58,215 bases of DNA, taken from the IMG/VR virus record IMGVR_UViG_3300042869_000303, positions 1 to 58,215 of that record; one strand, written 5' to 3'. Each line of letters starts with the position of its first letter. Positions within the stretch are counted from its first letter, which is position 1. Positions 31,957 to 58,215 of this stretch are shown in pieces. The position numbers were made by a program, and so were the translations under genes. Source of the stretch: a virus. A model generated the notes under the pieces. That model worked only from the letters and a program-made list of their open reading frames with translations, had not been told where the DNA came from and made no database searches.

Positions 31957-32472
31957 TTATGATTGCAGCTCCTTAAACATATGGTCTATCTTTTTATAGA
32001 CAAAGTCTTCTGCACCATCAGGAGTGTTCTCTTTTATTTTATCAAATATTTTCAAAAGTCTTTTGTTTGGTTCGGTAGGTTTCAACTCATTTTTGAGCTT
32101 TTCATTCTCTAAAATTAATCTTTCTACCTGACTTCTTAGCATCAAGGAGCTAAGTTTCGTGTTGTCTAAAAAACTATCCTTGTCATCCAATTTCAAAGCC
32201 TCTTGAAACATGTCCCTACAAACTATGTACTTTCTCATCAAACTATCGTCCTGAGCAAGTATGTCATCAGCCTTCTTGCAGTGATGCATTATTGTTGTGT
32301 GGTCATTATTCAAAGACTTTCCTATGCTTGAGAACGTATATCCCCTTCCTCTTAAAAGCATTCCGTATATCATTCTAGCGTCCACGGTCTCTCTTCTCCT
32401 GTTTGTTCTTGATATATCTATTCCGAATACGTTGTCTACTATATTTTTTAATAATTCCATTTCAGATTTCAT
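31957..32472 (-). CDS. DnaA domain IV-like DNA-binding protein
   Basis: Residues 28-70 (VDARMIYGMLLRGRGYTFSS, then IGKSLNNDHTTIMHHCKK) match the DnaA C-terminal DNA-binding domain, including the signature D-H-T-T-(I/V)-x-H (D57 to H63) that recognises DnaA boxes, with a helix-turn-helix before it. No AAA+ ATPase region is present: the whole protein is 171 residues, and the rest is a coiled-coil-like tail. It may bind DnaA boxes as initiator, loader or competitor of host DnaA. A second, smaller protein of this type is at 39439. Candidate DnaA boxes lie at 46604-46650. Leader TCTAAATCAAATCGACC precedes the start. Confidence 0.8.
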   Translation of the reverse strand: MKSEMELLKNIVDNVFGIDISRTNRRRETVDARMIYGMLLRGRGYTFSSIGKSLNNDHTTIMHHCKKADDILAQDDSLMRKYIVCRDMFQEALKLDDKDSFLDNTKLSSLMLRSQVERLILENEKLKNELKPTEPNKRLLKIFDKIKENTPDGAEDFVYKKIDHMFKELQS

Positions 32473-33016: not shown

Positions 33017-33100
33017 TTAGTTTAAAAATACGGACACTGAGCCGCATATAATAATCACAAAAATAGTCCATATAACAATGTTAATTATCTTGTACTTCAT
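33017..33100 (-). CDS. 27-residue single-membrane-segment microprotein
   Basis: The ATG at 33100 overlaps the TGA of the helicase gene (ATGA), and the frame encodes MKYKIINIVIWTIFVIIICG plus SVSVFLN before TAA. The product is a short positively charged start followed by one membrane helix. The stop is six bases before the next start codon. Stop-start coupling and a clean hydrophobic segment make a real gene likely despite the length. It resembles three other tiny membrane or lipoprotein genes of this block. Function unknown. Confidence 0.5.
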   Translation of the reverse strand: MKYKIINIVIWTIFVIIICGSVSVFLN

Positions 33101-34563
33101 ATTAAGAAATCTTTTTTAAAATGGTTAACGGTGTAGTCCTTCTTTTTTGTTACAGCCTTGTAGATGTCCTTCTCGATGCCGCCCTTGGAAAAAATCCAAA
33201 AGACCTTGTTCTCTAGCCGATCCTTTGTTGTCATCCGGTCCTTGCTCTGCCAATAGCTAGTGGCGCTGAAGTCAATGTTGTAGTAGACCAAGTAGTCAGC
33301 ATGCTTCAGTGATATTCCCTCACGACCTGAAACAATCTGCAGCGCAATATTCTTGTCAGTTTCATCGAAGACACTAAGCTCGGTGGTCAGTTGGTCCCCG
33401 AATACCTCCTTGAGAGCGTTCAGCTCCTCCTTGAACTTGTAAAAGATACCAATCTTGCAGCCGCCAAAATGCTCCTTGATAAACTCAGCCTTGCTGTAGT
33501 CTACTATCATCGAGTTTCCGCTTTCAAATTTAATTGTTCCTGAGCAAAGTTGGTGTACTTTCATCATTAATTTTACGGGCGTGTCCCCAAGGATAACCTC
33601 CTCCTTACCCTCAACAACCAAGTCCTTCTTCAACTTTGCAATCAACTTATAGGTTGACTCCTTCATCTGAACCTCCAACACCTCCTCCGTAGTCTCAGCG
33701 TTGAATCCTGCCTCCTTCTGCGTGTAGCTGATGGTATATGGCTCCATGGCTGCAAGTATCGTATCTAAGCCTCTAGTGTAGTCGTTCATCAACAGACCAT
33801 TTATTTTCTTCTGCTTGACGTTGACGTATTTATCACAGAACCGATAGAAGCTTGAGAACTCCCTGAAAGGGTTGCCCGATATGCCGTACACCTGATGGTA
33901 CATCTGCGAGTATGACTCGGGGGTTGGAGTACCTGATAACAGTATCACCATGGGCTTCAAGTTATTGACTAGCTCCCTTACAGCGTTTGCTCTGTCACTT
34001 GGCTTAGGGAACGCTCCCATGCTGTGTGCCTCATCACAAATTATAAGGTCCCAAACCATATTGCTTGATACAATGTGCAGGCTTTCGTAGTTAATAACCA
34101 CTAGGTCAAAGGATGGGTTTAGCATTTTATAGTCAGCATGTATTGAGCCTATTGCCTTCTTCTTTGTTATGAACAGCACACGCTTGGCACCTACTACTTC
34201 AGCCATGGACAGCGATGTAAGGGTCTTGCCTGTACGTACCTCCATGGCTAGGTAGACGAACCCGTGCTTCTTAAGGATGGCGACACCCTTGCTTACGATA
34301 TCCTTTTGGTAGTCCCTTAGGACAACTTTCACTTCAGGCTCCGCTTCAAACAGCTCCTTGTAGTACTTGCAGCTCCTTACAACCTTATCAACAATCACAG
34401 GGTCTGACTTGTACTTGAGTATGTTCCTTATCTCAGCATTCTTTCCACGTCCAACGGTTACACTCTTTGATGACGTAACAACATCCTTTAGCATCACGCA
34501 CTGCAGCCACATCATCTCGTTTGAGTAGCCCAATATTCTTTCGATGTGTTCGTTTGGTGTCAT
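33097..34563 (-). CDS. SF2/SNF2-like DEAH-box helicase
   Basis: The 488-residue protein has the helicase motifs: Walker A MEVRTGKT (about 107-114), motif Ia-like VLFITKKKA, DEAH at 177-180 (LIICDEAHSMG), motif III-like LLSGTPTP (about 210-217), and a C-terminal lobe with GIFYKFKEELNAL, then VSGREGISLKHADYLVYYNI and SKDRMTTKD (motifs V and VI). This order fits SNF2-like or phage SF2 helicases acting on duplex or forked DNA in replication or recombination. It is coupled to the 83-residue upstream gene by a 4-base overlap. Confidence 0.88.
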   Translation of the reverse strand: MTPNEHIERILGYSNEMMWLQCVMLKDVVTSSKSVTVGRGKNAEIRNILKYKSDPVIVDKVVRSCKYYKELFEAEPEVKVVLRDYQKDIVSKGVAILKKHGFVYLAMEVRTGKTLTSLSMAEVVGAKRVLFITKKKAIGSIHADYKMLNPSFDLVVINYESLHIVSSNMVWDLIICDEAHSMGAFPKPSDRANAVRELVNNLKPMVILLSGTPTPESYSQMYHQVYGISGNPFREFSSFYRFCDKYVNVKQKKINGLLMNDYTRGLDTILAAMEPYTISYTQKEAGFNAETTEEVLEVQMKESTYKLIAKLKKDLVVEGKEEVILGDTPVKLMMKVHQLCSGTIKFESGNSMIVDYSKAEFIKEHFGGCKIGIFYKFKEELNALKEVFGDQLTTELSVFDETDKNIALQIVSGREGISLKHADYLVYYNIDFSATSYWQSKDRMTTKDRLENKVFWIFSKGGIEKDIYKAVTKKKDYTVNHFKKDFLI

Positions 34564-34816: not shown

Positions 34817-37213
34817 TTAGTTTATAGGTTTCTTTTTAATGATTATCCAACGCCCTATGTGGTCCCTGCCCTCCTCCGGCTGAACGCCCTCCTTGAACAA
34901 GGCATATGATATAAGCCACTTGTAGAACCTCGTCCTGCTTATACTCATCCTACCCCTCGGTCCGTAGTCAGGATGCTCCTCAACAAAGTTGTAGTACAGG
35001 TCGTTCTTGTAAAGCCTCTGCTCCGCAAACAGTGAGTTGCTTTTGTCGTTACCCTCAACCAATCCGCACCACTCAATGAACTCGTGACAACTCTCTGCCG
35101 ACAACTGCCTAATCTTTAAGTTCACAAACGTTGACTTGACAAGACCCGTGGTCAGGTAGTTCTTCAGGCACCCAATCATGTAGTTGTCAAACTCGCACCA
35201 ATCTGCATCGTTCCAATCCCCGAACATCAACTTGCCAAACTCGTCCAATGGCGTATAGCTTTTAGTGTAGTACTGATGCAGCTCCAACTCCCACTTACGT
35301 CTTGCAAACGAGTTACCTGCTCCCTTGATGGCGTAGTTTGTTGTTATGGCAATCTTCGGTGACTTGCTGAACGGTATCTTGATGGCATCCTTGTTCTTCT
35401 TCTCCAATGTCAACCCCTCCGTAACAACCGAGAACAATCTCTCGAAGTCGAAGTGCTTCTTCACGTCATCAAAGCAAAGTATCTGCGTGTCCGCTGATAC
35501 CAACTGATATGCGAATGAACGCTCAAAAGCAAACGACTTACCATCGATAACCACCAACTTCTTCATCTTTGATAGCGCATTCATAATTAGCCCCTTGCCC
35601 GTGCCGCCCTCCGGATTGTCGCTTATCACCTCATCGTTCAGTATCACTGCCGGACAGAAAGATAGGTTCTTGTAGCCATGCATCAAGAATCCCAACGTAC
35701 TCTCCATTGCGCTTACCCTTTGTTCATCACTGCCGTTGATGTTTGAGATGAACTTTTTAAAGTCGCATCTCTCAGTAACGCTGCATATCGTAAAGTTCCG
35801 GTCAATCACATGGTCTTTCCAAACGTAGCCGCCAAGATCTAAGTAGTCAATTGGCGTAACCTCGGTCTTTGTAATCTTAACAGCGCAGTTCTTGTAGTAC
35901 AGATACGAGCAGTACTTTGAGTCCTCGATGAAGTAAATGTCAATCGTTGACAGCAACGAAAGAAACTCCTCCTTGAAGAACCTAGTGTTGTCAGCGAAGT
36001 AGTTGTACACACTGATGTCGTCCAAGTCAATGAGATAGGAAAGTATGAAGTCCTTAATCTCCTTGTCTGAAGTGTGGTCAATCAAGTTGTTTGTAACCTT
36101 CACGAACACGTAATTCTTCCCACCCTCGGGGCAGTACTTGTAGAAGCCATTGTCCTCAAGGAACTGCTTGAAAAGAACGTGAACTATTCTGATAACACCT
36201 CGCTCGTTCCTGTCCCAAAAGGTCTGCTTTGCGTTCTCCTCCTCAACCTTGTTCAGAACCGCATCGATAACGTTTGAGTCTAGGTTCGAGTCCTGAAGTT
36301 GAATCTTGATCTCCTTCTTAGAAACGCCTCTCCGTAGCTTCGCTTTTATTTGGTTTATGCGCTCCTCATCCTCGTAGTACTTAGTCCCAAAGTTCATCGT
36401 GTTCCTGTACGCTGAGTCAATCGTTATAGCAATCTCCTTGGTAGTAAAGTCTTCGCTAGAGTAGTGGTTCAAGACGTACACGGCAAGGCTCTTGTTGATA
36501 CCAAAGTCATTGAACGCCATGGCAAGGATATAAGCGTTGTGGTTTCGCTGACCCTCGCTCATCGGATACTTGTTTGTCCACCACTTTACGAGTATCTCCA
36601 CAATCTTGTTCTCGTCAGTAATTGGTATCGTGGGTTGGTCTCTGTTCTTACTAACCTCTGTGTACTCGGTCTCCTCTATAACGTCCCAAACAGATGAGTT
36701 CTCGTTGATGTGCAGCAGTGGGTCGTAAGACTCGTAGCAAACTCGGCTAAGGTTCTTGCTCGTCTTGTCGAAGTATGGTGAATTGAAGTGCTTCTCTAGG
36801 CTGTTGAAGTAGTTCACATGGTTCTCAGGGTCTTCAGGAACCTTAACCAATACCTTCAGCCCGTTACCTGACGGTGAGATGAATACAGAATAAACGTACT
36901 TGCTCTTCGACAAACTCTCCTTGTCCTGCAAAAGTTCCTTCTGCTTAAGGTACCCATCAAAGTCTAGGCATACCAACCCTGAGTGCTGAATCAACGAAGT
37001 GTCTAGTCTCTTGTTGAATGTGCCACTAAAACATATTGCAGGTAGCTGCTTCTTTAACTCGTTACGATCAGACTTATTGCTCTCTGACCTAATCTTTTTT
37101 ACCAACTCCTTTGTTGCTCCGTTCTTTATTCGCTCTAGTATTTTGTTGACCGGACGGAAGAAGGGAGTGTCCGTGTCCTTGATGTTTTGGAATATTGTTA
37201 CATTTGCTGTCAT
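34817..37213 (-). CDS. Primase-helicase with VirE-N/BT4734-like N-terminus
   Basis: The 798-residue protein combines a BT4734/VirE-N-like primase-type N-terminal region (about 1-185, including HSGLVCLDFDGYL and VFISPSGNGLKVLVKV), a PriCT-like helical segment (about 205-275, SEGQRNHNAYILAMAF) and an SF3-type helicase. The helicase has Walker A GGTGKG at 536-541, Walker B-like ILCFDDVKKHF and sensor IAITTNYAI. Such proteins prime and unwind at phage forks. The VirE-N type is characteristic of Bacteroidota and their phages. A terminator and promoterless A/T-rich gap separate it from the SSB-like gene upstream. Confidence 0.85.
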   Translation of the reverse strand: MTANVTIFQNIKDTDTPFFRPVNKILERIKNGATKELVKKIRSESNKSDRNELKKQLPAICFSGTFNKRLDTSLIQHSGLVCLDFDGYLKQKELLQDKESLSKSKYVYSVFISPSGNGLKVLVKVPEDPENHVNYFNSLEKHFNSPYFDKTSKNLSRVCYESYDPLLHINENSSVWDVIEETEYTEVSKNRDQPTIPITDENKIVEILVKWWTNKYPMSEGQRNHNAYILAMAFNDFGINKSLAVYVLNHYSSEDFTTKEIAITIDSAYRNTMNFGTKYYEDEERINQIKAKLRRGVSKKEIKIQLQDSNLDSNVIDAVLNKVEEENAKQTFWDRNERGVIRIVHVLFKQFLEDNGFYKYCPEGGKNYVFVKVTNNLIDHTSDKEIKDFILSYLIDLDDISVYNYFADNTRFFKEEFLSLLSTIDIYFIEDSKYCSYLYYKNCAVKITKTEVTPIDYLDLGGYVWKDHVIDRNFTICSVTERCDFKKFISNINGSDEQRVSAMESTLGFLMHGYKNLSFCPAVILNDEVISDNPEGGTGKGLIMNALSKMKKLVVIDGKSFAFERSFAYQLVSADTQILCFDDVKKHFDFERLFSVVTEGLTLEKKNKDAIKIPFSKSPKIAITTNYAIKGAGNSFARRKWELELHQYYTKSYTPLDEFGKLMFGDWNDADWCEFDNYMIGCLKNYLTTGLVKSTFVNLKIRQLSAESCHEFIEWCGLVEGNDKSNSLFAEQRLYKNDLYYNFVEEHPDYGPRGRMSISRTRFYKWLISYALFKEGVQPEEGRDHIGRWIIIKKKPIN

Positions 37214-39438: not shown

Positions 39439-39741
39439 TTAAATTGATGTGCTTTTGTCCAACTCCTTGATAGCTACAACGTAGTCCTTGTCCTCCTTTA
39501 TCTTGTCCTCCACAGCCTTTATGCCATGGATGATTGACGAATGTTTAATTGTGTAACCGCTAAGAGCCATGTAGTCCTCAATGGAAGTTATTTTCATTTG
39601 CCTATTATAGCACATGTAGTAAAGAAGATGCCTAGCATCTACCAACTCACTCTTCTTTGACTTAGAGAACATGTCCTCCTTGCTGATGTTAAATAGTTTT
39701 GCTATCCTATCTGCATAATGATTAAAAATATTCTGCTTCAT
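39439..39741 (-). CDS. Second DnaA domain IV-like protein, 100 aa
   Basis: Residues 33-80 (LVDARHLLYYMCYNRQMKIT, then YTIKHSSIIHGIKAVEDK) have the helix pattern of DnaA domain IV: the ARxLLYY helix, helix-turn-helix and the H-(S/T)-(S/T)-I-I-H signature (67-72), less perfect than in the gene at 31957. There is no ATPase domain. It is the first gene behind the best leftward promoter of the block, so it should be expressed early and strongly. It may bind DnaA boxes near 46.6 kb or its own control region. Confidence 0.72.
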   Translation of the reverse strand: MKQNIFNHYADRIAKLFNISKEDMFSKSKKSELVDARHLLYYMCYNRQMKITSIEDYMALSGYTIKHSSIIHGIKAVEDKIKEDKDYVVAIKELDKSTSI

Positions 39742-46526: not shown

Positions 46527-46603
46527 ATTATTTATTTTTAAATGCTTAAAATTCGTTTGTTCGTCGTTCAATTATTCCACAATACTACATTAAAGAAAAA
46601 ACA

Positions 46604-46650
46604 TTATCCAAATAACTTTATCCACATTTACAAAAAAATTATGTTGATAA
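46604..46650. other. Candidate replication origin with DnaA boxes
   Basis: TTATCCACA at 46618-46626 is an exact match to the strong E. coli-type DnaA box. TTATCCAAA (46604-46612) and, on the reverse strand, TTATCAACA (46650-46642) each differ from it by one base. All three lie within 47 bases in the divergent gap, beside an A/T-rich stretch (46672-46715, with AATAATTTAAAAAATTTATT) that could unwind. The phage encodes two DnaA domain IV-like proteins. Origin function is inferred. Confidence 0.6.
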
Positions 46651-46759
46651 CCTCTGAAACGTATCAGCAGCAAGGGTTGTAGAAGATGAAAATAATTTAA
46701 AAAATTTATTGAGATTCAAAGCGAAGGGAGGGAAAGCAGACCCTGAAGGCACTTTACTT

Positions 46760-46834
46760 GTCTAACTTTATTTGTTAGACTCGTCTAACTTTGGCGCAAA
46801 ATAATTGTTAGATTGATCTAACTTTATTTGCTAG
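46760..46834. repeat. Palindromic operator-like repeats (GTTAGAC half-sites)
   Basis: GTTAGAC-TC-GTCTAAC (46774-46789) and GTTAGAT-TG-ATCTAAC (46807-46822) are two perfect 7-base inverted repeats with 2-base spacers, 33 bases apart. An extra GTCTAAC (46760-46766) faces the first palindrome across TTTATTT, and a degenerate CTAG half-site follows the second. The arrangement looks like binding sites for a dimeric regulator in the control region between leftward and rightward genes. Confidence 0.75.
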
Positions 46835-46852
46835 GCGCTTACTTTGCGCAGT

Positions 46853-46903
46853 CTATCTAAAGTTTAACTTCAGGTAGCTATCTAAAGTTTAACTTTAGGT
46901 AGC
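46853..46903. repeat. Two tandem 26-base palindromic direct repeats
   Basis: Two copies starting CTATCTAAAGTTTAACTT (46853-46878 and 46878-46903) differ at one base and abut with a shared C, giving a 25-base period. Each copy is itself a near-palindrome: CTATCTAAAGT and ACTTTAGGTAG around TTA, with 10 of 11 standard pairs in copy two. They are distinct from the GTTAGAC sites, and could be a second operator or an origin iteron. Confidence 0.75.
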
Positions 46904-47181
46904 GCAATGGAATATACTTTTAAATTCATGTTGCAAATGTTTGAGGGTAGGGCGGACTGCAAACGTATGGACGGAATGCATGGGTAATGACGGCAAACGG
47001 ACGGGAGTAATACCACTGCATTATCTTGCAGCTATGCAGCCATGCCATGACCATGGAAACGCCAAAAATATGGACGGGAATTTTTGAAAGCGCACCCCCA
47101 CCCCCTGAAAATATTTTCGTTTTCGTTTTCGTCCGGTTCATCATAAATCCTGTTAGAATCCCCACAGTGAGAATATTTCAT
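46904..47181. other. Non-coding part of the divergent region
   Basis: No supported gene is seen in this ~280-base stretch. It is GC-richer than its flanks, has several (A/T)GGACGG words (for example near 46969, 46997 and 47074), a CTGCA/TGCAG inverted repeat near 47017-47032 and a run of three TTTTCG-like units near 47115. It may belong to the origin or to regulation of the rightward genes. Confidence 0.4.
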
Positions 47182-47189
47182 TATATTTG
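47182..47189 (+). promoter_or_regulatory. Bacteroidota-type -7 promoter element
   Basis: TATATTTG matches TAnnTTTG and lies 19 bases before the ATG at 47208. It is the first rightward promoter seen after the divergent control region. A -33 TTTG is not evident at the standard spacing. Confidence 0.6.
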
Positions 47190-47207
47190 TGTACTAAAAA
47201 CACCAAT

Positions 47208-47435
47208 ATGGCAAACAAGAAACTTGACTTAAGAAACAGTATTTATCAGCAGCAGGGTTCGGGATATGGTTTAACCCAAAAGAATGGTATGTTGATTAAC
47301 AATGCTCCTGATAGTCGTACCGGCATTCAGCAGCTTTGCGAAACCAAGAAAATGATGAAGCGTTCTGAGAAGATATCTACTTATTCGGAGGCTATCGCAA
47401 TGGGTAATTCCATGAGTGATTGTGGGTGCGATTAA
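47208..47435 (+). CDS. Small hypothetical protein, 75 aa
   Basis: The ATG at 47208 (MANKKLDLRNSIYQQQGSGY) is preferred over one seven codons upstream, since it follows the promoter at a normal distance and begins as many phage proteins do. The 75-residue product has polar helices (CETKKMMKRSEKISTYSEAI) and ends NSMSDCGCD. A similar DDCGC end region occurs in the 60-residue protein at 52353. It forms a one-gene unit between a promoter and a terminator and is likely well expressed. Function unknown. Confidence 0.6.
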   Translation: MANKKLDLRNSIYQQQGSGYGLTQKNGMLINNAPDSRTGIQQLCETKKMMKRSEKISTYSEAIAMGNSMSDCGCD

Positions 47436-47585: not shown

Positions 47586-47677
47586 AATGTCAATTTTAAA
47601 GTCAAATTTTAATGGGGGATTTTTAGAAGAAGAAGAAGAAGAGAGAGAGAGAGTAGGGAAAATTTTAAATTGACATT
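47586..47677. repeat. Inverted repeat flanking a GA-rich microsatellite, upstream of groEL
   Basis: AATGTCAATTT (47586-47596) and AAATTGACATT (47667-47677) are perfect 11-base inverted copies, separated by ~70 bases that include a GAA/GA microsatellite (about 47626-47654). The right arm ends ~18 bases before the -33 TTTG of the groEL promoter, so this could be a regulatory site or DNA-looping element. Nothing coding is seen between 47436 and 47750. Confidence 0.6.
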
Positions 47678-47695
47678 CCGGTATTTGACTAAAAA

Positions 47696-47726
47696 TTTGT
47701 TTGTGTGTTTTATTGGTTTATATTTG
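47696..47726 (+). promoter_or_regulatory. groEL promoter, TTTG-N19-TATATTTG
   Basis: TTTG (47696-47699) and TATATTTG (47719-47726) are separated by exactly 19 bases, the full Bacteroidota -33/-7 pattern. The groEL start lies 24 bases beyond. This is the best rightward promoter in the window. Confidence 0.8.
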
Positions 47727-47750
47727 CGTTACAATCAAATCAACTTGAAT

Positions 47751-49367
47751 ATGAACAACGAAGTTTACTCTCCCAAAGATTTGCAGTTTGGCGAGGACGG
47801 AAGGAAGAGACTTATTGAGGGTGTAATGAAAATGTCAAAGGCTGTAGGCAGCACCTTGGGTCCAAGTGGCAACACTGTCTTAATTGAATCTCCCAATCAC
47901 ACACATGGAATTACTGTTACCAAGGATGGTGTAACTGTTGCTAAGGCGATGGACTTGCTTGACCCGGTGGAGAACCTTGCGGTTAAGATGATGAAGGAGG
48001 CTGCGGAGAAGACGGCAACGAGTGCCGGTGATGGTACGACTACTGCTATTGTATTGACCGAGGCATTGGTGCTTGCAGGATTGAACTTGATAAAGGATGG
48101 TGAGGTTAACAGGACAGAGGTGTTGAGACATATGGTGGAGATAACTGACGAGGTAGTGGAGAAGTTAAAGGCGAGAAGCAAGAAGGTGTCAAATAAGACC
48201 ATTGTGGACGTGGCTACTATTTCAGCGAACAATGACAAGAGCATTGGGAAGATTATCTCTGAGGTGTACAAGGACGTTGGCAAGAACGGTATTGTGACGG
48301 TTGAGAAGTCACAGTCGCATGAGACGTATGCTGAGACGACCATGGGCTTAAAGATTGACCGTGGGTATCTTTCACCGTTGTTTATTAACGACCAAAAGAA
48401 GGACGAGTGTGTTTTTGAGGATGTTATGGTCTTGGTAGCAGATATTGAGATAGCGAATATTCTTCAGATTGAAAACGTATTGAAACCAATTATAAGCGAG
48501 GGGAAGAGGTTGTTGATTATCTCTCCTTGCAATGCGAATGTGATAAACACGTTGGCGGCAAATGTGATGAAGGGCAACTTGAAGGTTGTTGCTGTTCCGC
48601 CTCCGGCATTTGGGTACAAGCAGAACGAGCTGATGCAAGACATTGCACTTAGTGTTGGTGCCACGTACTTCAGTGAGAAGACGGGTGACGACTTGAGCCA
48701 CATCAACTATGCTGACTTGGGGCATGCTGCCAAGGTTATTGTGAGCAAGGACAAGACGGTGATACTGAAGTCGGGGTTGAAGATTAAGCAGGAGGAGATT
48801 AACGAGAGGGTTGAGCAGTTGTGGCAGGCACATGCTGACGCAAGGTTAAAGTCAGTTAAGGACTACTTGCTTGAGCGTATTGCGTCATTGACGGGTGGCA
48901 TTGGTGTAATCTTCGTTGGTGGCAACACTGACTTGGAGCAGAAGGAGTTGTACGACAGGGTTGATGACGCTGTTTGTGCGGTTCGGTCAGCTTTAGAGGA
49001 GGGCATACTACCGGGAGCAGGGAAGGCTTTGTATGAGCTTGGCTTTGAGATATTCCAAGCTGCTGAGCATAGGAGCAATGAGCTAAACGTAGCGAGGGCT
49101 ATCATGTCGAACGCATTGTCTACACCACTGAGAACTATTCTAAATAATGCCGGAATAGAGCCCGTTGATGTTTATGAGTTGGGTATTGACGTGAGCGGTC
49201 ATGGTTACAACCTGAAGACGGGTGAGTTTGGCGACTTGATTAAGATGGGTGTTATTGACCCGTTGAAGGTTACGAGGAGCGCACTTCAAAATGCGGTGAG
49301 TGTAGCTGTCACCATACTTAGCACAAATGCAATCATCACCATGGCTCGTACTTACGAGGCAAAATAA
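47751..49367 (+). CDS. groEL: Phage GroEL-like chaperonin, 538 aa
   Basis: The true start is the ATG at 47751 (MNNEVYSPKDLQFGEDG), behind a promoter and the leader CAATCAAATCAACTTGAAT; an upstream in-frame start at 47670 lies before the promoter. The product aligns with GroEL throughout: LGPSGNTVLI (nucleotide-binding), ITKDG-like VTKDGVTVAK, AGDGTTTAIVL (93-98 GDGTTT), and GGIGVIFVGG followed by RVDDAVCAVRSALEEG (D405/D406, equivalent to the ATP-hydrolysis Asp). It ends MARTYEAK and lacks the GGM tail. The ring should fold phage virion proteins with the adjacent GroES. Codons ending in G or C are more frequent than in neighbouring genes. Confidence 0.93.
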   Translation: MNNEVYSPKDLQFGEDGRKRLIEGVMKMSKAVGSTLGPSGNTVLIESPNHTHGITVTKDGVTVAKAMDLLDPVENLAVKMMKEAAEKTATSAGDGTTTAIVLTEALVLAGLNLIKDGEVNRTEVLRHMVEITDEVVEKLKARSKKVSNKTIVDVATISANNDKSIGKIISEVYKDVGKNGIVTVEKSQSHETYAETTMGLKIDRGYLSPLFINDQKKDECVFEDVMVLVADIEIANILQIENVLKPIISEGKRLLIISPCNANVINTLAANVMKGNLKVVAVPPPAFGYKQNELMQDIALSVGATYFSEKTGDDLSHINYADLGHAAKVIVSKDKTVILKSGLKIKQEEINERVEQLWQAHADARLKSVKDYLLERIASLTGGIGVIFVGGNTDLEQKELYDRVDDAVCAVRSALEEGILPGAGKALYELGFEIFQAAEHRSNELNVARAIMSNALSTPLRTILNNAGIEPVDVYELGIDVSGHGYNLKTGEFGDLIKMGVIDPLKVTRSALQNAVSVAVTILSTNAIITMARTYEAK

Positions 49368-49377
49368 ACTTTAATAG

Positions 49378-49635
49378 ATGAAACCAATTGGTAAATACCT
49401 TGTGATAAAGACGATTGACGAGGAGATAAAGACCCAATCAGGTCTGTTTCTGTCAGGCGAGGATGCTAACATGATGCGTTATAGGCGTGGTCTTGTTATC
49501 GAGCCGGGTACTGACGTGAGTACAATCAAGAAGGGTGACGACATCTACTACGACAAGAGCCATGGCTTCACCATGCTAATTAATGACGATCAGTACACGA
49601 TTATTCGGGAGGCTGATGTCGTTGTTGTCTTATAG
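49378..49635 (+). CDS. groES: Phage GroES-like co-chaperonin, 85 aa
   Basis: MKPIGKYLVIK matches the GroES opening, GLFLSGEDANMMR is the mobile loop region (hydrophobic GLFL in place of the usual GGIVL), then RRGLVIEPG, IKKGDDIYYDKSHG and YTIIREADVVVVL align with the closing GroES strands. At 85 residues it is slightly shorter than the bacterial ~97. The 10-base gap behind groEL reverses the usual cellular groES-groEL order. Its last 35 bases overlap the convergent winged-helix gene. Confidence 0.9.
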   Translation: MKPIGKYLVIKTIDEEIKTQSGLFLSGEDANMMRYRRGLVIEPGTDVSTIKKGDDIYYDKSHGFTMLINDDQYTIIREADVVVVL

Positions 49636-50044
49636 ATGAGTTCATGCTTATTATCATGTTGCGGTACACCTTGTCTGCATATGACACGTTCTTCTTGAAT
49701 ACGGGGTTGTGAGACACGCTTGTTGGTATCTCATCCCCGTTCAGCTTCTTGTATATCTCTGTTATCATGCGTGTTCCTTTGTACGAAAGTTCGTACAATG
49801 CCTTACGGGCACCCATCCTCTTGCGGAACACCACAATCCACCCGTCATGGAGCAAGCGCTCAAACCTGTTGATGTCCCAACTTAGGAGCTCGTCAAATTC
49901 TGTGAACTTATCTTTTGTGAAGTATGACTCTGAGTAGAGGAAGAGTAGCATGTCGAGGTCTGCTTGTCCTAAGCCATATTTTCTTTTGTAGAAATATCGT
50001 ATGACCCTCCAATATTTTAGGTAGTCGTATGCTTTTGTTTTCAT
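49601..50044 (-). CDS. Winged-helix (MarR-like) DNA-binding protein
   Basis: The ATG at 50044 (MKTKAYDYLKYWRVIRYFYK), preceded by AAATTAAATCAA, is preferred over one 14 codons upstream. The 147-residue product shows helices, then a wing-like RKRMGARKALYELSYKGTRM segment, the pattern of MarR/winged-helix regulators, and a helical end. It is the only leftward gene between 47 and 58 kb, convergent with groES (35-base overlap) and divergent from the small-gene operon at 50101, whose promoter (50034-50066) overlaps its start. It may autoregulate and control late genes. Confidence 0.65.
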   Translation of the reverse strand: MKTKAYDYLKYWRVIRYFYKRKYGLGQADLDMLLFLYSESYFTKDKFTEFDELLSWDINRFERLLHDGWIVVFRKRMGARKALYELSYKGTRMITEIYKKLNGDEIPTSVSHNPVFKKNVSYADKVYRNMIISMNSSIRQQRHQPPE

Positions 50045-54067: not shown

Positions 54068-57000
54068 TTGGCAAAGATAAGTACATACGTCATTGACGGA
54101 ACGATAGTTGATGGTGACAAGGTTATTGGTAGTGATGCCAATAATGCCTTAGTCACCAAGAACTATACTGTTGGCGACTTGGTAAATTATTTTGCAGCCT
54201 CTATTGGTAACAACTTTTTAGTTCCTTACAACTTTGCAACCCAAGATGTAAACCTTGGGTTGTTTAGTCTTTCTGCAAACAACTTATCTTTAACGGGCAC
54301 CATCTCTTTATCGGGTAGCCAAGGACTGCCGGGTCAGGTTCCAATTAGTAACGGACCGGGGAATGACACCACTTGGGGTTACTATGTAGGCACACAAACG
54401 CTTCAAGGCGTATTAGACCTAGGGTATATAGCAACAGAAGCTATCTTACTCAATAATATAAATTCAAGAATAATTCTTGACACCAAAAACATTGACGGAC
54501 CTACTGCTGTTCGTGTTACTAACAAGCTGCCGTATAACAATGCTGCTATTTATGCTTCTGACACAATACATTTAGAGAGCAATCAGTTTGCTTACTCTCA
54601 AGACATTAATATTGACAGGACTGTATATGGTCTATCAGGCAACACGGTTACTTTAAAAACGGGGCAGTATAATAATCAGGACTTGATTCTTCCGGGCGTT
54701 GGTGGGGCATTGCTTGTATCTGTTAACGGTATATTTGGAGACTTGAGTGGAAATGTGATTGTGCCTAGCGACATTCCAACGTTAACAAGTGGGTCAGTTT
54801 TATTTTCAGATGGTACGACCATTGCTGAGGACAATGCCAACTTCTTTTGGGACGATACGAATAACAGATTAGGGATTGGTAATAATACTCCTTTATATCC
54901 TTTAGATGTAACAGGTACTATTAGAGGAAGTTCCGATGCTATTATTAATGGAGCAACTATTGGTCTTGGTTCAGGAAATATTTCTTCAAATATTGCTTTT
55001 GGAAGTTCAGCTTTGTCTTCTAATACTACAGGGTATAGCAATGTGGCTATTGGTTCAAGCGCAATGAGACTAAATACTACAGGAAGAACAAATCTTGCTG
55101 TTGGAGGGTTAGCTCTAGAGAAAAATATTATAGGATTTGGAAATATTGCTATTGGCGCATATGCTCTTCAAGAAAATTTATCTAATTATAATACAGCATT
55201 AGGATATACTGCTTTATATAAAAACACAACAGGAAATTATAATAGTGCAATTGGTTTTGGGTCGTTGCAAAGAAATACTACAGGTAGTTCTAATACAGCT
55301 TTTGGTTCACTTGCCTTAATAAATAGTACTACAGGCAGTTTTAATGCAGCATTTGGAAATTTTGTATTATATTATATATTGAGTGGTAGTAATAATAGTG
55401 CAATTGGGAGTTATGCAGGTAGTTATGTTAGTGACGGTATTTCACAATTAACCTCTGCTGATAATAGTATTTTTATTGGATATTATACAAAAGCGCTTGC
55501 TAACGGACAGACTAATCAGATTGTAATTGGTCATAGTGAAATAGGGTTGGGTAGCAATACCACTATAATAGGTAACGCCTCAACAGTCACCACGGCTCTT
55601 AGGGGCAACTTATTGCTTGGGTCAACTGTTGACACGGGCGGAATACTTCAGGTCACAGGAACGGCTAATATTAGCAGTACGGTAACTCTTGGGTCATTGT
55701 CAGGAGTAGGCACTAGGGTTGTTGTAGCTGATGCGTTAGGAGTTTTGTCGACTACTGCAATATCTAGTGGAACAGTTACAAGTGTAGGGCTATCTATGCC
55801 TGTAGCATTCACTGTAACCAATAGCCCTGTAACAAGTGCAGGAACATTAACGGTTACAGGAGCAGGTACAGCTTCTCAATATATTAGAGGTGATGGGCAG
55901 TTAGCTAATTTTCCTTCTAGTGGGGGTAGTGGTTCATCTGTTGCATATTATTTGAATGGTAGTGTTAGTCAGGGAACATTTGGTGGTGATGCGTATTATG
56001 AATTAAGTAGGACACCTGTGCTTAGTGCAGGAACTAACTTTACAAGAACAAGTGGAGCAGGTGATGGGTATATTGCTTCTTTTATAAGTGATGCAGGAGA
56101 CCCTAGCTTATTAAGCATTCCTGCAGGGAATTGGACTTTAGAATTTTATTTTAGTGCATCTGCAATTGGAGGCGCACCTAGATTTTATGGGGAGCTTTAT
56201 AAAGTTGATTCATCAAATGTTTTCACGTTAATTGCAAGTGAATCAGCTACCCCTGAGTTTATTACAAATGGCACTGCTATAGACCAATACTTTACATCTA
56301 TAAGTGTTCCACAAACTACACTGCTTGTAACAGATAGAATAGCTATAAGGATTTATGTTATTCCTACTACAAGAGATATAACATTACACACAGAAAACAC
56401 TACCTTATCAGAGGTATTAACTACATTCTCTACAGGATTAACAGCACTAAATGGATTAACTGAACAAGTTCAATTTTTAGCAGTAGGTACAAGTGGTACT
56501 GACTTTGCAATTAATTCTACCTCAGCTACACATACATTTAACCTACCTACGGCATCCGCAGCTAATAGAGGGGCTCTATCCTCAACAGATTGGAGTACAT
56601 TTAATGGTAAGTTTACACTGCCATCATTAACAGCAGGGTCAGTTTTATTTTCAAATGGAACAACAATCACTCAAGACAACGCTAATTTATTTTGGGATGA
56701 TACGAACAACAGGTTAGGTATTGGTACAGCTACACCATCTACAGCATTACAAGTCAATGGAGCCGCAACAGCAACATCACTAATAGTTAACACAAGTGGG
56801 CAAGGAAGAACAATTACAACATTCTATGGTGCCGGGAGTGATGGAAACAATATCTTTATTGGTGGTGGTGGATTAAGTAGTGGAACAGGTGGTGGTGCTT
56901 CTGTTCTTGGTTCTAACAATACATCGTTTGGTACTGAAGCATTACTTATTAATACAACAGGATATTACGGTACTGCTATTGGTTGGAGAGCATTATATTC

Positions 57001-58215
57001 CAATACAACAGGAAGAGATAATACAGCTAGTGGTAATCAATCATTATTTTCAAATTCAACAGGAAGAGACAATACAGCTAATGGTTTTCAATCATTGTTT
57101 ACAAATGGTATAGGAATATTAAACACAGCAGTTGGTTCTCAAGCATTATTTGCTAACACATCGGGAAATAATAACACAGCAATAGGTGTTGCCGCAGGTT
57201 ATTTAACAGGAGTTAATGCTAATACAACAGGTAATAATAACATATTTATAGGTGTTAATAGTTTAGGGGTAAGTTCAACAGAGTCTAATAGAACATGGAT
57301 AGGCAATAGTTCTACTAGCTCTACTTGGTTAGGTGGTAATTTGTTGTTAGGCACAACTACAGACTCAGGTCAGAAGTTACAAGTAACAGGAACGGCTATA
57401 ATATCAAGCACTACAACATTAAGCTCATTATCAGGTACAGGCTCTAGGATGGTGGTGGCTGACGCTACAGGTGTACTCTCAACCACAGCAATACCTAGTT
57501 TTACAATAACAGCATCAGCAATAGGAGGCGCTCCTAATGCTGAAGGTATTACTATATCAGGCACTAACTTAACATTAGAGCCTGCAGATGAAAATTTTGG
57601 AGGTGTTGTTACAACAGGTAATCAGAATTTCAATGGAAAAAAATATTTTTGGAACTCTATATATGTAGTTGATTCAGGAAATCTTCCCACTGTATCAATT
57701 GCGAATACAGGAATAACATTTGAAAATACAACATCAGGAGTTACTACTATAAATTCTACAAATCTTACAGGAATACAATCACTTGAATTACCTGATGCTA
57801 GTGGAACTTTTGCTTTAAGTATTAATAGTCTTTCTGCTGATGCACTAGGGAGTATTACACTTACTGCAGGAGATGTTGGAGCAGAACCTGCACTTGGCAA
57901 TCCATCTGTCAGCGGTTATGTGTTATCGTCTACAACAGCAGGTGTTAGGAGTTGGGTGGCAGCAGGGGGTAGTGGAATTACTTCTATAAATACCCTAACA
58001 GGTGCTTCGCAAACAATAGTTGCAGGGACAAGTGGAACTGATTTTGCTGTTAGTTCTACAGGTACTACACATACATTAAATCTTCCTACAGCATCTGCAG
58101 CTAATAGGGGCGCTTTAAGCTCTGCTGATTGGACTACGTTTAACAACAAGCAAAACGCAGTATCACTTACAACTACAGGAACAAGTGGAGCAGCTACATT
58201 CAATCCAACGACAGG
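54068..58215 (+). CDS. Large modular tail fibre, 3' end beyond the window (partial)
   Basis: A TTG at 54068, directly behind an in-frame TAA, starts [10 protein letters not shown], which matches MSKISTYTNA of the protein at 642, so it is the likely start. At least 1382 residues are visible and the frame is open to the edge. Repeated elements include [10 protein letters not shown]...[12 protein letters not shown] (near 54790 and 56640), ALxxNTTGxxNxAIG head-type repeats in two blocks (about 55010-55400 and 56930-57240), GNLLLG..., and [12 protein letters not shown] twice. Two similar modules ~1.8 kb apart indicate duplication. It is the receptor-binding fibre; a self-cleaving C-terminal chaperone may follow outside the window. 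Confidence 0.85.

Follow-up and report, generated by a model that had tools for sequence, protein, structure and literature searches.

Three DnaA-type boxes, one exact and two with a single mismatch, lie within 47 bases in the leftward part of the one large divergent gap of the phage genome studied here (the window, that is, the whole record of 58,215 bp). Judged from the sequence, these boxes may form a lineage-specific DnaA-type site that modulates the leftward gene cluster, a reading to which we assign a probability of roughly 45%. We take the gap as a whole to be the phage's main region of cis-acting control and a plausible origin region. Since the boxes are absent from nearly all relatives and the proteins with a DnaA-type DNA-binding domain are kept, the boxes look like lineage-specific regulatory or accessory sites and not like a proven origin.

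Genome and gene content

The window carries phage-type genes, including those for a terminase, GroEL, two GroES-like proteins, a primase-helicase, a helicase, a Sak annealing protein and an exonuclease. Because the last ORF (54068-58213) runs off the end of the record and no end repeat is present, the sequence is probably incomplete. The nearest named record is MW202828 (MW202828.1, Podoviridae sp. ctfjg026; circular, 60,850 bp), which resembles the window in gene order, in a primase that is 78% identical, in both DnaA domain IV proteins and in a conserved noncoding core. When the right half of the window was compared with phages by megablast, no match was obtained. IMG/VR contains very many relatives, of which the near-complete ones measure about 60-66 kb, and the primase is common to about 600 contigs or more. 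Related phages that infect Flavobacterium or other Bacteroidota, together with a Bacteroidota-type promoter, suggest that the host belongs to the Bacteroidota. Two GroES-like genes accompany GroEL in this one phage (49378-49635, Cpn10 by Pfam; 1123-1686, GroES by PHROG).

Genes on the left side of the gap are almost all oriented leftward, and those on the right side rightward. The leftward cluster holds the replication genes and both domain IV genes; no cognate Rep initiator was recognised in Pfam and PHROGs scans of the main ORFs.

Genes referred to in the text:
31957-32472, minus strand: class B protein of 171 aa, a stand-alone DnaA domain IV (DHTT) with a helical C-terminal extension (PF08299, model)
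33097-34563, minus strand: helicase, SNF2-like / phrog_62 (Pfam/PHROGs scans)
34817-37213, minus strand: primase-helicase with BT4734-like N-terminal domain, PriCT and DUF5906; highly conserved in the clade
39439-39741, minus strand: class A protein of 100 aa, a stand-alone DnaA domain IV whose recognition motif is changed to HSS (PF08299, model)
47670-49367, plus strand: GroEL-like chaperonin, the synteny anchor (Pfam/PHROGs scans)

DnaA boxes in the divergent gap

The gap is bordered by the first leftward start codon (46526) and by the start of a small rightward ORF (47208). By synteny, relatives have an equivalent divergent gap upstream of GroEL.

Features of the gap and its right border:
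46527-47207, no strand: divergent intergenic gap between leftward and rightward gene clusters
46567-46666, no strand: AT-rich stretch holding the boxes, 76% AT per 100 bp, among the top 1.5% of the window
46604-46612, plus strand: DnaA box with one mismatch, TTATCCAAA (sequence match)
46618-46626, plus strand: exact DnaA box, TTATCCACA (sequence match)
46642-46650, minus strand: DnaA box with one mismatch, TTATCAACA (sequence match)
46755-46905, no strand: window-specific dyad repeats, two TTAGA-N4-TCTAA palindromes and two copies of CTATCTAAAGTTTAACTT(C/T)AGGTAG
46950-47080, plus strand: GGACGG-type short direct repeats leading into the core (sequence)
47057-47200, plus strand: conserved noncoding core (AAACGCCAAAAA...ACCCCCACCCC...AAAAAA...TATCTAA...), ~150 bp, in about 100 relative loci
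47182-47189, plus strand: TATATTTG, a -7 promoter element of Bacteroidota type that precedes the small rightward ORF (TAtcTTTg in relatives)
47208-47435, plus strand: conserved small ORF (MANKKLDLRNSIYQQ...), syntenic in relatives, no convincing family match

The initial annotation had described three boxes in the only large divergent gap, beside an A/T-rich stretch, and all of this was confirmed, each box lying where it had been placed. No second copy of the exact box is present in the record. The total of one-mismatch boxes in the window is at chance level (15 observed versus 17.5 expected), and the signal is therefore the clustering. The cluster was reproduced in none of 300 and none of 3,396 whole-window shuffles and in none of 5,000 gap shuffles, which agrees with the earlier claim that chance would rarely place three such sites together; these p-values overstate the evidence, because the window had been picked for its box cluster in the first place. 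Among 1,679 other 9-mers of equal composition, a single one formed a similar cluster in the window, and this was an overlapping register. No match to the exact DNA pattern around the boxes was obtained in a search of viral contigs.

Boxes in related phages

At the homologous place in relatives, boxes occur at chance level. The 76 distinct homologous gaps contain 5 TTATNCACA sites and 16 one-mismatch sites, where shuffles give 3.2 +/- 1.8 and 15.1 +/- 3.9, respectively. Three boxes are found only in the gap of this window; fewer are present in L047 (two) and in L057/L058 (one). The examined gap regions of L124, L130 and L145 have no TTATNCACA box despite a canonical DHTT motif in class B, and no association was seen between the class B recognition motif and the repeats or boxes of the gap. 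With boxes at chance in the gaps and domain IV proteins throughout the clade, it is the proteins that are a general trait, unlike the boxes.

Across 3.5 Mb of loci, just one other three-box cluster exists, that of MW202828 (L082:951-990). This cluster is noncoding and lies not in the gap but elsewhere, immediately before the start of the VRR-NUC gene (MTEQQ...) with the class B gene behind it, a position that favours transcriptional control. Separately, a DnaA-type box pair was seen within a conserved 86-aa coding gene (L066:2231-2262 and L028:227-258).

These comparisons bear on the possibility that three near-boxes simply fell together in one of many scanned windows and have no function. The one-mismatch total at expectation, the lack of enrichment across relatives and the selection of the window all agree with such an accident. 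The 0/3,396 window shuffles argue against it, as does the behaviour of TTATCCACA across the loci, where it gives two distinct three-site clusters, both intergenic, versus none for 1,619 of 1,677 permuted 9-mers. Overall, we consider chance alone unlikely.

GC skew and a possible replication origin

Cumulative GC skew, which had been put forward as a check on an origin, reaches a local minimum at the gap in this phage; in four relatives (G001, G002, G007 and MW202828) the minimum falls no more than about 0.6 kb away. No consistent switch in skew was found at fourfold-degenerate sites or in the conserved counter-oriented gene. The minimum follows gene orientation and gives no independent support for an origin; GC skew was dropped as independent origin evidence on account of this confounding.

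If the cluster were part of an origin, host DnaA or a phage domain IV protein would bind the boxes, the AT-rich DNA would open and the primase-helicase would be loaded. The clustering of boxes within AT-rich DNA, the skew minimum, the replication genes in the leftward cluster and the presence of repeat arrays and a conserved core in the gap are consistent with this. A weak trio-like pattern, four degenerate trios 11 bp after 46626, can be added, as DnaA-trios adjoining a box are a feature of DnaA-dependent origins (PMC8287927); the same pattern, however, follows 7-12% of random positions. Further counter-evidence comes from the chance frequency of boxes in the 76 homologous gaps, from a skew that tracks gene orientation and from phage DnaA-like proteins that lack an AAA+ domain. 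What remains of the origin proposed in the initial annotation is a set of clustered boxes in a control region at a skew minimum; an origin at the boxes is possible but on balance doubtful.

Conserved core and lineage-specific repeats

BLAST aligned two parts of the gap with relatives and no others: the core (47057-47129) and the coding end on the left, where the match extends to about 46549 and, weakly, to 46594. The box-bearing stretch 46550-47050 had no convincing homolog. The core forms the right end of the gap, is conserved across 30 aligned relatives and is present in one copy per locus or genome in about 100 relative loci (weak in MW202828). Its end in relatives consists of the TAtcTTTg promoter element, followed by the start of the conserved small ORF. 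An Rfam search over the gap matched nothing, and RNAalifold (30 sequences) gave no RNA fold in the core. The core is a better candidate for a conserved cis-element than the boxes. Just to its right, the product of the small ORF carries the motif IYQQ..G.GLT...G.LINN.P.

The repeats between the core and the leftward genes vary by lineage. The two TTAGA-N4-TCTAA dyads are absent from the rest of this genome. The repeat content of this gap was reached by 2 of 200 shuffles, and also by 9 of 100 ordinary windows of the genome; for the gaps of most relatives, none of 200 shuffles reached the value. Arrays noted by lineage (46755-46905 here; L057, L047, L003, L015 and L079) comprise TTAGA-N4-TCTAA dyads, AGTCYACC dyads, ACTAACG, GGCAGG and ACTATGC. 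On their sequences, the varying arrays look as if they track a changing DNA-binding protein. A conserved ORF of 147-161 aa (49601-50044) lies on the opposite strand within the rightward cluster, and the MW202828 annotation calls it 'repressor protein', a label for which Pfam gave no support; its product is a candidate reader of the dyad repeats.

Stand-alone DnaA domain IV proteins

Two proteins with DnaA-type DNA-binding domains had been noticed in this genome, and both match PF08299 above the curated cut-off (37.2 and 36.4 bits versus 31.5). The class A and class B profiles match the DnaA chains of E. coli, B. subtilis and Aquifex. Class B and class A were also modelled with AlphaFold (mean pLDDT 90 and 93), and the models match structures of DnaA domain IV, several of which are box-bound (3pvp, 1j1v and 8btg), with a Foldseek probability of 1.00; the E-values were only 0.003-0.05, because the domain is so small. 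Neither protein (171 and 100 aa) has an AAA match, and no full-length DnaA was found in the record. The AAA+ domain is the part of DnaA that opens origins.

The recognition motif is NDHTT in class B, which keeps the DHTT type, and KHSS in class A, from which DHTT is absent. Of 36 records searched, many of them fragments, 29 contain PF08299, and both families are clade-wide, with 63 distinct class A ORFs and 126 distinct ORFs from the class B search (a set that includes some class A proteins). A single-sequence search of viral contigs with class A gave no match. Several class B lineages have lost DHTT (L131, L141, L144, L147, L149, L152 and L175; e.g. RDYGVYMYY and KKSRYAADYY), which suggests changed or lost recognition of DnaA boxes. 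The initial view of a phage that brings its own readers of DnaA boxes was not supported, the proteins being clade-wide and motif and boxes showing no association across relatives.

The domain IV proteins might instead act mainly on the host, competing with host DnaA at host boxes such as those of oriC and so curbing host initiation, with the boxes in the gap minor or autoregulatory. Proteins throughout a clade whose gaps lack boxes would fit such an action, as would the retention of DHTT by class B in several lineages. However, recognition motifs are altered in class A and in many proteins of class B, and we regard such a host-directed role as improbable. More speculative, and in our opinion very improbable, is a scheme in which the clade starts replication at the hypervariable gap, the paired domain IV proteins serving as detachable origin-recognition modules that hand over to the primase-helicase; the recognition helix would be matched to the array of each lineage, and true DnaA boxes would still be used in this phage.

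Comparison with known systems

A literature search on phage-encoded DnaA, or on the origins of such phages, found nothing direct. The site resembles bacterial oriC arrays (E. coli, B. subtilis) in having TTATNCACA-type boxes clustered by AT-rich intergenic DNA. It differs from them in that the gap has only three boxes, one of them exact, and no clear DnaA-trios, that the boxes are not conserved in relatives, and that full-length DnaA is missing from the record. With iteron-type plasmid and phage origins the gap shares short direct or dyad repeat arrays by AT-rich DNA; its repeat unit, however, differs between lineages, and the scans of main ORFs recognised no Rep initiator.

DnaA also works as a transcription factor by way of boxes in promoters; nrdAB, for example, has three (PMC8203912). 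DnaA-regulated promoters (dnaA, nrdAB) are similar to the putative regulatory site of the phage in that a few DnaA boxes stand upstream of replication-function genes. The activator GafA, which carries a DnaA-DBD-like domain, governs a gene transfer agent of phage origin (PMC6363796); like the class A and B proteins, it combines a DnaA-DBD-like HTH detached from AAA+ with a phage-type genome setting. GafA has other targets and a sigma-like part, which is absent from classes A and B.

Proposed role of the box cluster

In the reading that we favour, a lineage-specific site for control of the leftward cluster, divergent transcription would start in the gap, which may include a replication origin. 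A domain IV protein, either host DnaA or class B with its DHTT motif, would bind the boxes, and the bound protein would modulate the leftward cluster of early and replication genes. Binding could possibly also help strand opening in the adjoining AT-rich DNA.

Several observations point to this role: a cluster beyond the shuffles, gap synteny with a single-copy core, repeat-rich gaps in most relatives, boxes in a homolog-free stretch, the promoter-type position of the MW202828 cluster, and class A and B proteins that model as domain IV. On the other side, no leftward promoter of Bacteroidota consensus was found near the boxes, and the cluster is present in only two phages of the clade, at different places.

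If the boxes are bound in infection, the phage would tap the replication-initiation code of its host, with its own detached DnaA DNA-binding domains at hand for reading or masking that code. The conserved core and the two domain IV proteins are defined targets for finding the origin and control switch of these abundant uncultured Bacteroidota phages.
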